DNA from: Caulobacter sp. 73W
GTDB taxonomy: Bacteria; Pseudomonadota; Alphaproteobacteria; Caulobacterales; Caulobacteraceae
Assembly: GCF_041021955.1 (NCBI RefSeq)
Contig: NZ_CP158375.1
Span: 3,832,501-3,896,500 of the forward strand
DNA length: 64,000 nt
Direction of reading: 5' to 3'
Shown here: positions 56,550 to 60,393 of the stretch, piece after piece
Position numbering within the stretch: position 1 is the stretch's first letter
How the letters are laid out: every line of letters begins with the position of its first letter
Position numbers and translations under genes: made by a program
Notes under the pieces: generated by a model
Told to the model about the DNA's origin: nothing
Seen by the model: the letters and a program-made list of their open reading frames with translations, nothing else
Database searches by the model: none

Positions 56550-57497
56550 ATGGCCCCCAAGGTCTTCATCGACGGCGAAGCCGGCACCACCGGCCTCCAG
56601 ATCCGCGAGCGGCTGGTCGGCCGCACGGACATCCAGCTGATCTCCATCGATCCGGAGCGCCGCAAGGACGCGGCCGCGCGCGCCGAGATGCTGAACAGCG
56701 CCGACGCGGTGATCCTGTGCCTGCCCGACGACGCGGCCAAGGAAGCCGTCTCGCTGATCACCAATCCCGAGGTGAAGGTCATCGACGCCTCGACCGCCTA
56801 CCGCACGGCGGAAGGGTGGGCCTACGGCTTCGCCGAGATGTCGAAGGAGCAGCGCAAGAAGATCGCCGCCTCCAAGCGGGTGTCGAACCCTGGCTGCTAT
56901 CCCACCGGCGCCATCGGCCTGATCCGGCCGCTGGTCTGCGCCGATATCCTGCCGGCCGAGTATCCGATCTCGATCAACGCCGTGTCGGGCTATTCCGGCG
57001 GCGGCAAGGCGATGATCGCCGACTTCGAGGACGCCTCGTCCGAGAACTACACGCACGACGCCTACCGCATCTACGCCATGGGCATGGGCCACAAGCACGT
57101 GCCGGAAATCCAGACCCACGGCGGCCTGTTCACGCGCCCGATCTTCGCCCCGGCCGTGGGCCGCTACGCCCAGGGCATGCTGGTCGAGGTGCCGCTGCAC
57201 CTGTCTCTGCTGCCGGGCGCCGCCAGCCTGGCCTCCATCCATAAGGCGCTGAGCGACCACTATGCCGGCGAGCGGTTCGTGGAAGTCGCGTCGCTGGACG
57301 AGGCCAAGAACCTGAAGACCCTCGACCCCGAGGGCCTGAACGGCACCAACCGCATGAAGCTCTTCGTGTTCGGCTCCGACACCATTGGTCAGGCGCGGCT
57401 CGTGGCCCTGCTCGACAACCTGGGCAAGGGCGCTTCCGGCGCGGCGGTCCAGAACCTCAACATCATGCTCGGCCTGGACGAAGGCGCGGGGCTGTAG
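56550..57497 (+). CDS. argC: N-acetyl-gamma-glutamyl-phosphate reductase (type 2)
   Basis: A 315-residue NADPH enzyme of arginine synthesis. It starts [20 protein letters not shown], the cofactor loop of the shorter ArgC type. The catalytic Cys lies in [20 protein letters not shown] near residue 116; [14 protein letters not shown] and [14 protein letters not shown] follow. Length matches the type 2 branch rather than the 350-residue type 1. It ends 16 bases before the left arm of the inverted-repeat cassette. Confidence 0.93.
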
Positions 57498-57513: not shown

Positions 57514-57547
57514 CTCCGTCTTCGCCCGACTTGTTCGGGCGACCCAT
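57514..57547 (+). repeat. left arm of 34-bp inverted repeat
   Basis: Exact reverse complement of 57877-57910. Internal dyad CGCCCGA (57523-57529) / TCGGGCG (57535-57541). It begins CTCCGTC and ends ACCCAT, 16 bases after the argC stop, and could also serve as a transcription stop. Confidence 0.9.
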
Positions 57548-57564
57548 GCCGTAGATTGTCAGGC

Positions 57565-57866
57565 ATGGTCACGCGGGACGGCGTTATCGCCACCTACATC
57601 ATGGTGAGCCAGAAGAACGGAACGCTGTACATAGGCGTTAGGCTGATCTCGCGCGACGAGCCTATGAGCACCGCGAGAGTCTTATGGACGGCTTCACCTC
57701 GCGCTACGGCGTGAAGCGCCTCGTTTGGTACGAGGTCCACGATCGTATGACTGAGGTCATCCGACGCGAGAAACGGCTCAAGAAGTACCCGCGCGCCTGG
57801 AAGATCAATCTAATCGAATAGATGAACCCTGATTGGGCCGACCTGTATCTAAGGCTCAATCAGTGA
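57565..57866 (+). pseudogene. GIY-YIG nuclease family gene, decayed
   Basis: A remnant of a roughly 100-residue GIY-YIG endonuclease of the small UvrC-like (COG2827) type. The first frame gives MVTRDGVIATYIMVSQKNGT and LYIGV, containing the YIG half of the motif. After GTT at 57637-57639 five bases (57640-57644) stand where six are needed. The correct frame then resumes DLARRAYEHRESLMDGFTSR, followed by YGVKRLVWYEVHD and RREKRLKKYPRAWKINLIE. A TAG at 57819-57821 replaces an expected Glu/Lys codon, and MNPDWADLYLRLNQ then leads to the stop at 57864-57866. One frameshift plus one nonsense codon make it non-functional as it stands. Confidence 0.88.
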
Positions 57867-57876
57867 CTGTCACGGA

Positions 57877-57910
57877 ATGGGTCGCCCGAACAAGTCGGGC
57901 GAAGACGGAG
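57877..57910 (-). repeat. right arm of 34-bp inverted repeat
   Basis: Exact reverse complement of 57514-57547, ending 19 bases from the phaC stop codon. The arm ends GACGGAG and is followed by TTTTG, so on the plus strand its hairpin could also act as a terminator. Confidence 0.9.
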
Positions 57911-57929: not shown

Positions 57930-59876
57930 TTAACTCCGCACCTGTACATATGTACCAGGCGCGTCTTCCAGCGGGGCGAGCGGACCCGTCGCCGGATCGC
58001 GCGCCGGAATGAGCTTGCCCGAGCGCTCCTTGAGCCAGACCGCCCAGTGCGGCCACCAGGAGCCGGCGTGCTCCTCCGCCTCGGCGATCCAGCCGTCCAC
58101 GGCGCCGGGCAGGTGGGCGTTGGTCCAGTGCTGGTACTTGTTGGCGTCTGGGTGATTGATGACCCCGGCGATATGACCCGAGCCGGCCATGGTGAAGGTG
58201 GTCGGGCCGCCGTAGCAGCGCGCGCCGCGATAGACGCTGCGGAACGGGGCGATGTGGTCCTCCTTGGAGGATTGCACGTAGATCGGCGTCTCGACCTTCG
58301 ACAGGTCTAGCATCTCGCCGCCCAGCTCCAGCTCGCCGCGCGCCAGGGCGTTCCGCTGGTAGAAGTTGCGCAGGTAGAATAGGTGCAGGGCCTTGGGCAT
58401 CCGCGTCTGGTCGGCGTTCCAGAACAGCAGGTCGAAGGGCTTGGGCTCCTTGCCCAGCAGGTAGTTGCTGACGAAGAACGACCAGATCAGGTCGTTGCCG
58501 CGCAGGGCGTTGAAGGTGTCGGCCATGGACTGGCTGGACAGGAAGCCGCCGTCGGCGTCCATCCGCGCCTCGATCTCCTTCAGCCAGGTCTCGTCGGTGA
58601 ACAACAGCAGGTCGCCGGCCTCGGCGAAGTCGGCCTGGGCGGCGAAGAAGGTGGCCGAATTGATCCGCTTGTCGCCCTTGGCCGCCATGTGGGCGAGGGC
58701 GCAGGCCAGCAGGGTGCCGCCGATGCAGTAGCCGACGGTGTTGATGCGATCGACGCCGCACTGCTTCATGGCCTGGGCGGTGGCGTCATAGACGCCCTCG
58801 AACATGTAGTCCTCGAAGGTCTTGGCCGCGAGCGTGGCGTCCGGATTGACCCAGGAGGCGACGAAGACGGTGAAGCCCTGGGACGTCAGCCAGCGGATCA
58901 TCGAGTTCTCGGGCCGCAGGTCGAGGATGTAGTACTTGTTGATCCACGGCGGGAAGATCAGCAGCGGAATCTCGTGGACCTGATCGGTCGTGGGCGAGAA
59001 CTGCAGCAGCTGCAGGATGTCGTTCTGATAGACGACCTTGCCCGGGGCGGTGGCGACGTTCACGCCGACCTTGAACTTCTCCAGATCGGTCTGGCTGATG
59101 GCCAGCTGGCCGCCGCCGCGCTCCAGATCGGCGGCGAAGTTCTCCATGCCCCGCACCAGGCTCTCGCCCTGGGTCTCCACCGCCGCGCGCATGGCGGCCG
59201 GGTTGGAGAACAGGAAGTTCGACGGCGAGAAGGCGTCGGTCAGCATCTTGGTGAAGAACTCGACCCGGCGCTTGGCGGCGGGGTCCACGTCCTCGACCCC
59301 CGAGACCAGGCTGTTCAGCCAGTTGGCGCTGAGCAGATAGGACTGCTTCATCAGGTCGAACATCGGATGCTCGGACCAGTCGGGATCGTTGAAGCGCTTG
59401 TCGCCCTTGGCCGGGGCCACGACGGGTTGCGCTGGCTCGCCCGCGATGCGCTGGGCGGCGCTGCGCCACAGCTCCAGATACTGGGTGAACAGGTCGGCCT
59501 GGGCCCGCATGACGCGATCCGGCTGGGCGGCCAGGCGGCCCATGACCTCGGTCAGGGCGGGGGCGACATGAAAAGGATCGGGGCTGAGGGCGGCTGGGCG
59601 GTCGGCCTGACGCAGGGCGGCCTCGGCGATGGCGCCCTGGGCGGTCATGGCCGCCTTGGCCAGGTTCAGGGATAGGGTCTCCATCGCCTTTCGCTGCTCG
59701 GGCGTCATCAGGGCGTAGAAGTCGGCGGCCGGGTTTTCGCCAACCGGGGGAATTTCGGCCTTAGGCGCCTCGACCTTGGGCGCTTCGGCCTGAGCCTTGG
59801 GAGGGGTCTTGGGCTTGGCCGTCTTCGGCGCGGCCTTTGGTTTGGCGGTTTTGCGCGTCGGAGCGTCGTCGGCCAT
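57930..59876 (-). CDS. phaC: class I poly(3-hydroxyalkanoate) synthase
   Basis: A 648-residue synthase that polymerises hydroxyacyl-CoA into PHA granules. The lipase-like box GYCIGGTLLACALAHM near residue 382 carries the catalytic Cys; the Asp lies in VQSSKEDHIAPFRSVY and the His in GSGHIAGVINHPDANKYQHW. The N-terminal domain has FNDPDWSEHPMFDLMKQSYL, typical of class I. An unusual N-terminal extension of about 50 residues is rich in Ala, Lys and Pro (TRKTAKPKAAPKTAKPKTPP). ATG 59876 follows GAGAGACGAC. Frames extending further upstream overlap the divergent lipoprotein gene and are not coding. Confidence 0.94.
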   Translation of the reverse strand: MADDAPTRKTAKPKAAPKTAKPKTPPKAQAEAPKVEAPKAEIPPVGENPAADFYALMTPEQRKAMETLSLNLAKAAMTAQGAIAEAALRQADRPAALSPDPFHVAPALTEVMGRLAAQPDRVMRAQADLFTQYLELWRSAAQRIAGEPAQPVVAPAKGDKRFNDPDWSEHPMFDLMKQSYLLSANWLNSLVSGVEDVDPAAKRRVEFFTKMLTDAFSPSNFLFSNPAAMRAAVETQGESLVRGMENFAADLERGGGQLAISQTDLEKFKVGVNVATAPGKVVYQNDILQLLQFSPTTDQVHEIPLLIFPPWINKYYILDLRPENSMIRWLTSQGFTVFVASWVNPDATLAAKTFEDYMFEGVYDATAQAMKQCGVDRINTVGYCIGGTLLACALAHMAAKGDKRINSATFFAAQADFAEAGDLLLFTDETWLKEIEARMDADGGFLSSQSMADTFNALRGNDLIWSFFVSNYLLGKEPKPFDLLFWNADQTRMPKALHLFYLRNFYQRNALARGELELGGEMLDLSKVETPIYVQSSKEDHIAPFRSVYRGARCYGGPTTFTMAGSGHIAGVINHPDANKYQHWTNAHLPGAVDGWIAEAEEHAGSWWPHWAVWLKERSGKLIPARDPATGPLAPLEDAPGTYVQVRS

Positions 59877-59967
59877 GGTCGTCTCTCCCGTCGCGGTGCT
59901 TTCCGGCGTCAACAGAACGCACTCGCCCTTTCGTTCGTTACGATCATCGCATAAGAGCGAAGACGAT

Positions 59968-60393
59968 ATGAACGCCACAAAGCGGATTTTTGACCAGACG
60001 ATTCGAGGGGCCGCGGGCATCGCGGTTCTGGCGATGGTTTCTGGCTGCGCCATGCCGAAGGTCACGAGCGCTTCCTCGCCCCTGGCGCAGGAAGCCGCGC
60101 GCGTCGCCGCCGAGCCGGGCGAGTATCCCAACGTCGCCGATATCCCCAAGGCGCCGACCGACGTCCGTGGTGCGGGCGAATGGCGTGCCGCCGTCCAGAA
60201 TTCAGAAGCCGCCGGCCGTCGGGTCACCGCCGAAACCGGGCCGGAAACCTTCACCCTGAAGGAGACCGAGAGCTACGCCGCCTCGGGTCGCCGCGCCGCG
60301 ACCCCGCCGCCGGCCGTCACCACGCCCGCCGATACGGCGGCCTTTGTGCGCGCAGCACGCGAGCGAGCTACACCGCCTCCGTCCCCGCGCTGA
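59968..60393 (+). CDS. hypothetical lipoprotein
   Basis: A 141-residue putative lipoprotein. The signal peptide GAAGIAVLAMVSGCAMPK has a lipobox VSGC near residue 27. The mature part is low in hydrophobics and contains PGEYPNVADIPKAPTDVR, then an Ala-, Pro- and Thr-rich tail. The stretch YPNVADIPKAPTD is reminiscent of small SPOR- or pilus-associated lipoproteins, but no family can be named. It is divergent from phaC with 91 bases between the starts. Confidence 0.7.
   Translation: MNATKRIFDQTIRGAAGIAVLAMVSGCAMPKVTSASSPLAQEAARVAAEPGEYPNVADIPKAPTDVRGAGEWRAAVQNSEAAGRRVTAETGPETFTLKETESYAASGRRAATPPPAVTTPADTAAFVRAARERATPPPSPR

Follow-up and report, generated by a model that had tools for sequence, protein, structure and literature searches.

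A 397-bp stretch between argC and phaC of Caulobacter sp. 73W, at positions 57514-57910 of the window studied here (64,000 nucleotides, C1:3832501-3896500 of a 4,007,162-bp single-contig genome), ends in a perfect 34-bp inverted repeat and encloses a broken gene for a GIY-YIG nuclease. The element is probably the decayed remnant of a mobile cassette some 400 bp long, in which a single nuclease gene is set between two CGTC-tagged repetitive extragenic palindromic (REP) sequences, tags outward. It would resemble the REPtron of REPs and REP-associated tyrosine transposases (RAYTs), but with a GIY-YIG nuclease as its enzyme. What can be seen directly is the anatomy of the cassette, the association of CGTC-tagged REPs with genes of this family, a match between nuclease type and repeat type, presence and absence at orthologous sites, discrete ends, and internally deleted derivatives.

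Anatomy of the argC-phaC element

The two arms, at 57514-57547 on the plus strand and 57877-57910 on the minus strand, are exact reverse complements, as a preliminary description of this DNA had stated. The match reaches 38 of 39 positions once extended inwards to 57552/57872, and it does not extend outwards. No other perfect inverted repeat of the window is as long at spacings below 1500; the runner-up measures 16 bp. Read from outside to inside, the arm is CTC-CGTC-T-TCGCCCGA-CTTGT-TCGGGCGA-C-CCA-T. In the left arm the unpaired tag CGTC occupies 57517-57520, the stem 57522-57529/57535-57542, and the loop CTTGT 57530-57534, and the tail CCA runs to 57546; the right arm, recognized from the inverted repeat, the fold, and a structure-aware REP model designated R1, is the same REP inverted, with the complement of its tag facing outward at 57904-57907. 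Each arm folds on itself, as had also been proposed; as single-stranded DNA it forms a stem of 8 bp with a loop of 5 nt (z -4.8 and -4.1 for the two arms). The preliminary description read the arms as ending in GACGGAG, which is complementary to the end written as CTCCGTC; the tag is therefore CGTC.

The arms are REPs of a published superfamily, described as having the tag CGTC, TGTC, or CCTC, a stem of 8-9 bp, a loop of 4-5 nt, a CCA tail, and an arrangement in head-to-head dimers (PMC3733652; Di Nocera, De Gregorio and Rocco 2013). That survey places CGTC REPs mostly in alphaproteobacteria, names C. crescentus as CGTC-positive, and equates CGTC-1 of the Neisseriae with the dRS3 repeat. It gives A-T pairs at the first two stem positions as present "almost invariably," and so not as an exclusive criterion; in the window's arm, position 1 is an unpaired T/C and position 2 is T-A. 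Position 1 is paired in 20 of 24 distinct arms. The left arm scores 43.6 bits against model R1 (E 1.8e-10), although it belongs to the model's own seed. REPs are expected in many copies, but the window's genome has just six matches to model R1, and the two of exact type are the arms themselves. A search of that genome with the exact 34-mer, allowing up to three mismatches, likewise returned only the two arms. Taken alone it would suggest an isolated feature; the structure-aware model revealed the wider family.

The 24 distinct arms come from several lineages and differ in their stems, with pairing built into the finder. They show 56 two-sided covariation cells against a shuffle mean of 16, and "further pair types" do not exceed shuffles. 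Because all arms except the window's were chosen by a finder that requires pairing, covariation is not used as evidence. A reading of the arms as an RNA family was rejected, as nothing came near Rfam gathering scores and the two matches, one per arm, were at chance level.

The gene between the arms, predicted beforehand to be a GIY-YIG remnant, is indeed a broken member of that family. Two lesions disrupt it: the reading frame shows a net change somewhere between 57642 and 57669, and an in-frame TAG stands at 57819-57821. The N-terminal piece (57565-57642, plus strand) carries the Y-I...LYIGV motif and matches PF01541 at E 0.17 on its own; the C-terminal piece, in another frame (57669-57818, plus strand), matches at E 9e-4, both being below the gathering score. 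The latter piece is 60-74% identical to the best 80 of 227 public homologues. The stop codon is followed by a conserved tail, MNPDWADLYLRLNQ, and then TGA (57819-57866, plus strand, from TAG to end), comparable to NP.W.DLY of relatives. A genome-wide family search found no intact GIY-YIG nuclease; the broken gene is the sole family match found in its own genome.

REPs beside GIY-YIG genes in relatives

All 22 intact relatives match PF01541, with Y, Y, R, H, E, and N invariant, and the cassette nuclease is roughly 95-110 amino acids long. T5orf172 is matched by one of the 22 and TIGR01453 by three, and a Pfam scan of the window's gene and the 22 intact relatives found no transposase family. An AlphaFold model of the protein from locus L042 has a mean pLDDT (predicted local distance difference test) of 88. 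Its fold search ranks the GIY-YIG domains of UPF0213, Slx1, and UvrC on top, all weakly, with none at E 0.001 or better. Likeness to UPF0213 proteins appears both by profile and by weak fold match, and these provide the closest solved structures (PDB 1zg2 and 1ywl; profile to 1zg2 E 5e-8, fold E 0.01).

Two sets of relatives were examined for REPs. The public set is the best 80 of 227 relatives found in public genomes; it includes Rhizobium, Devosia, Sphingomonas, Legionella, Luteimonas, and metagenome-assembled genomes labeled Planctomycetota and Dehalococcoidia, labels that may reflect contamination. In the genus, 175 family matches, broken copies included, occur in 66 of 75 genomes, and the genus set comprises 90 loci chosen by score from the 174 outside the window's genome. 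Overlap is slight: four public loci on Caulobacter contigs (L017, L042, L081, and L083, with an identical 150-nt core) recur in the genus set.

CGTC-type REPs are concentrated at these genes. At the 80 public loci, 170 were found in a nominal 77 kb or so adjoining the gene, against 9 in 140 kb farther out. A first finder, which demanded the CCA tail, found REPs at only 11 of the 90 genus loci because the repeats of the genus vary; stepwise relaxation raised this to 29 and then 52, with 1 of 29 argC control loci positive at each rerun. With the relaxed finder, 72 of 80 public loci have a REP on one side or the other; 43 are flanked on both, and in 35 the tags point outward. The corresponding numbers are 52, 26, and 24 among the genus loci, and 1, 0, and 0 among the argC controls. 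Model R1, applied to the whole fetched stretch, gives 118 matches in 46 of 90 nuclease loci versus one match in the 29 argC loci, and that lone match is the leftover arm of the window's cassette site in genome G047. An inverted repeat of score at least 15 spans the gene at 52 of 90 genus loci, compared with 11 of 90 when flanks are swapped and 0 of 29 argC loci. Under a loose criterion, which accepts either an R1 match at any position in the locus or an inverted repeat scoring at least 18, 77 of the 90 genus loci qualify. In L128, L136, L137, L165, and L166 the nuclease gene has a complete REP pair on each side rather than a single REP.

The preliminary description had allowed that the repeat might occur only here, or widely with no link to GIY-YIG genes. 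The exact repeat is indeed confined to the cassette in its own genome, but its type recurs, at up to one mismatch, in 10 of 390 genomes of the bacterial family, its own included. At 28 loci of other genomes no GIY-YIG gene was found beside this arm type, in a search repeated with two positive controls, and the ones inspected visually hold a REP pair or a single REP; it is the wider repeat class that is linked to GIY-YIG genes. REP pairs with the window's stem occur at L222 (G386) and L212 (G006), and neither fetched stretch contains a GIY-YIG gene. In G006 the window's arm type occurs 12 times, and one GIY-YIG family member was detected elsewhere in that genome. The window's own genome holds three REP pairs of another CGTC type, each about 130 bp long, at C1:754668-754697, 767481-767510, and 801206-801336 (L146-L149; two completed by eye), with stems CCTAGG and CTCGCC; no nuclease gene for these pairs was found in that genome. 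A longer CGTC-tagged palindromic repeat, CGTCATGCTGAGGAGCGCG...CGTCTCGAAG, read by eye, stands beside REPs in L087/L221 (the argC-phaC gap of G047) and L146.

Repeat type tracks nuclease type. The comparison used the 52 genus loci with a recognized arm, leaving aside 38 without one, and pairs from different genomes. Protein and arm similarity are correlated with a Mantel r of 0.73, a value reached by 0 of 300 permutations. After removal of same-genome pairs and pairs with related outer flanks (blastn or tblastx), which left 1262 of 1326 pairs, r is 0.72, again reached by none of 300 permutations. Among flank-unrelated pairs, arm similarity is at least 0.85 in 34 of 34 with protein similarity of at least 0.9, and in at most 1 of 539 with protein similarity of 0.4-0.5. 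For 35 copies whose nearest protein lies in another genome, the arm is nearer to that copy than to the own-genome paralogue in 27, with 5 ties and 3 reversals. Such matching fits enzyme-substrate pairing or co-inheritance as a unit, and would be given by either, without separating the two.

Copy numbers also vary together. Model R1 has a match at E <=0.1 in all 75 genus genomes, with counts, taken among the best 98 scored candidates per genome, from 1 (partly chance level) to at least 98. REP number correlates with nuclease number, broken copies included (rho 0.42, p 2e-4, in 75 genomes; 0.36 in the 61 at >=90% completeness). The median is 4 REPs in the nine genomes without a detected nuclease and 33 in the other 66.

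Cassette ends and orthologous sites

One subfamily supplied ten cassettes for comparison: G054 and G057 hold three each, and four other genomes hold one each. These align from CCGCTCAT to ATGAGCGG, with similarity starting and ending at the tag. Both ends are common to eight of the ten; the left end of L208 differs, and the fetched stretch of L125 stops before the right arm. The copies are related but not identical (L161 shares 82-89% DNA identity with the others), and the comparison shows that the long arms reach past the REP itself.

Orthologous sites were compared for two of these cassettes, each resolved on one flank only. At the L155 site, where G057 holds a complete cassette, the left flank matched ten relatives, of which eight were fetched. 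G007 and G054 hold short derivatives of the same class with a mere gene fragment, G058 has a REP pair of another type, and G048 reaches a contig end; in the fetched stretches of G056, G038, G045, and G055 (L245, L247, L248, L251) no REP was found. At the L161 site, where the right flank matched nine relatives, none of the eight fetched has a same-class REP, and G038 has a REP of another type.

The junction comparison was also made for the window's own site, and the cassette is not always present there. It is absent from G062 and G014, the two closest relatives. In G062 (argC 95% identical) 12 bp separate the stop codons of argC and phaC. G014 (argC 96%) has some 4.5 kb of other sequence between the two genes, with no REP found adjoining argC or phaC. 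G047 (argC 91%) still has the left arm, with another repeat after it. As G047 is more distant than these two, the pattern calls for two insertions, or else for one old insertion with later loss from G014 and G062. Elsewhere in G047 the same arm occurs at three places, each in a REP pair about 100 bp long, and these pairs have the cassette's inner CATGCC, which is what miniature derivatives should show. The orthologues of two of these sites in the window's genome contain other sequence or repeats, which shows absence but gives no clean empty site. Like a mobile element, the cassettes have discrete ends and empty orthologous sites, the latter seen from one side only for intact copies.

Pyrimidines are enriched just outside the tag on either side of the cassette: the adjoining 15 nt hold 69% versus 45% farther out for the genus (73 flanks) and 68% versus 46% for the public set (100 flanks). 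The pyrimidine-rich 12-15 nt or so outside the tag (L004-L083, L114-L209) may reflect a possible target or binding preference.

The flanking genes lie outside the cassette and are convergent housekeeping genes, as first described. Upstream, on the plus strand, argC (56550-57497) matches TIGR01851 with 517 bits. Downstream, on the minus strand, the open reading frame of phaC (57930-60254), encoding a class I polyhydroxyalkanoate (PHA) synthase, matches TIGR01838 with 798 bits. At 774 amino acids this frame exceeds the match to the PHA synthase model (residues 242-771), and the true start is probably internal.

Interpretation and relation to known systems

A mechanism can be outlined for such a cassette, and we infer that mobilization is by the nuclease. 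The enzyme would recognize its own REP hairpin when single-stranded and cut beside the tag, so that the segment between two REPs would be released or copied; this segment would then be taken into pyrimidine-rich sites by host repair. REPINs, the solo REP pairs, would represent non-autonomous derivatives. More broadly, small single-domain GIY-YIG nucleases may be the dedicated mobilizing enzymes of CGTC REPs and REPINs, with cassettes the autonomous and REPINs the miniature form, a generalization for which we judge the case evenly balanced.

Several points weigh against this account. By the relaxed finder, REPs stand on both sides of just 43 public loci (of 80) and 26 genus loci (of 90), and 38 of 90 genus loci have none. 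Some genomes without a detected nuclease hold many REPs (38 in G048), and the correlation of counts ignores kinship and, for the 75-genome figure, completeness too. The window's own flanks are just 60% and 47% pyrimidine, and no target duplication is visible by eye when G062 and the window are compared. Joining is the weakest step of the mechanism: GIY-YIG enzymes act on DNA by hydrolysis, with no covalent intermediate, so that rejoining must be supplied by something else.

An alternative is a homing-type element, in which REPs already in place would be cut by the nuclease and the gene would be copied in between two of them during repair, the REPs themselves spreading by other means. GIY-YIG is a known homing-enzyme fold, three of 22 relatives match TIGR01453, and the REPs around the gene are also found as pairs that lack it. 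Homing would predict REPs at the unoccupied sites. As resolved on one flank, four of eight fetched relatives at the L155 site (L245, L247, L248, L251) have no REP that we could find and none of eight at the L161 site has one of the same class, and the long arms of the cassettes extend past the REP itself. We regard homing as unlikely.

Somewhat less likely still is that the nuclease is domesticated by the host and not mobile, with REPs as binding sites through which DNA uptake or recombination is modulated, as is reportedly the case for Ssn of Neisseria. The single copy found in many genomes would agree with this; the occurrence at unrelated sites of cassettes that closely resemble each other, with three in a single genome, and presence or absence between close relatives argue otherwise. 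The arms might also be chance or purely transcriptional hairpins, forming a bidirectional terminator that happens to enclose a pseudogene. Strong hairpins between convergent genes would suit a terminator, but a search for terminator-like sites with a T-run found none, the argC-phaC gap of G062 lacks these hairpins, and the same tag-stem-loop-tail design flanks the GIY-YIG family in unrelated places. As a full account this reading is refuted by the REP-nuclease association, and we consider it highly improbable.

The decayed-cassette reading invites comparison with RAYT (TnpA-REP) systems and their GTAG REPs. Both have a small nuclease gene between its own tagged REP hairpins, solo REP pairs, and enzyme-specific repeats, here with CGTC instead of GTAG. 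The enzymes differ, as a RAYT is an HUH enzyme that uses a catalytic Tyr and forms a covalent intermediate, while the Pfam assignment here is GIY-YIG, a hydrolase; the cassette nuclease is thus not a RAYT. The RAYT-like layout with GIY-YIG replacing HUH, first suggested from the window alone, gains support from REP hairpins that flank GIY-YIG genes far above controls, from repeat types that track nuclease types, and from cassettes present or absent at orthologous sites.

The nuclease side has probably been described already. A 2025 Nat Commun report by Chenal et al. is said to present the Ssn GIY-YIG family as cutting single-stranded repeats in Neisseria and beyond, small GIY-YIG proteins reportedly being paired with a repeated sequence, the Neisseria NTS, and many homologues with sequences of their own. 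NTS may be the same as dRS3, a CGTC-1 REP according to the 2013 survey. Because this report probably covers the same enzyme family as the cassette nucleases, no new kind of system is claimed. Should that report already connect the family with flanking repeats, the additions made here are the CGTC REP identity, the evidence for a mobile cassette, and the decayed copy. The original statement that this is not a described mobile system holds for the searchable literature, where GIY-YIG together with "extragenic palindromic" has no match, but on the nuclease side is probably overtaken by Ssn. Among the titles and abstract openings listed, no work links GIY-YIG with RAYT/REP, dRS3, REPIN, or terminal inverted repeats or miniature inverted-repeat transposable elements (MITEs), and the available portions of PMC8432527 and PMC1564403 were uninformative.

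The CGTC superfamily itself agrees in tag, stem, loop, tail, and head-to-head pairs; in the cassettes studied here the partner is a GIY-YIG gene. The 2013 survey reported these REPs without a mobilizing enzyme and left their spread open, and its main text contains neither "GIY" nor "UvrC" (PMC3733652).

Related intact cassettes suggest that GIY-YIG nucleases are partner enzymes of widespread bacterial hairpin repeats, CGTC REPs being spread over many alphaproteobacteria and Neisseria (as dRS3). With a nuclease matched to each repeat type, the spread of CGTC REPs becomes directly testable. If this interpretation is true, it would join two literatures, on REPs and on single-strand nucleases, and would explain why many genomes of the genus carry several tiny GIY-YIG genes. 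It would also add another way to move bacterial DNA, by a hydrolytic single-strand nuclease as opposed to DDE, HUH, or recombinase chemistry.
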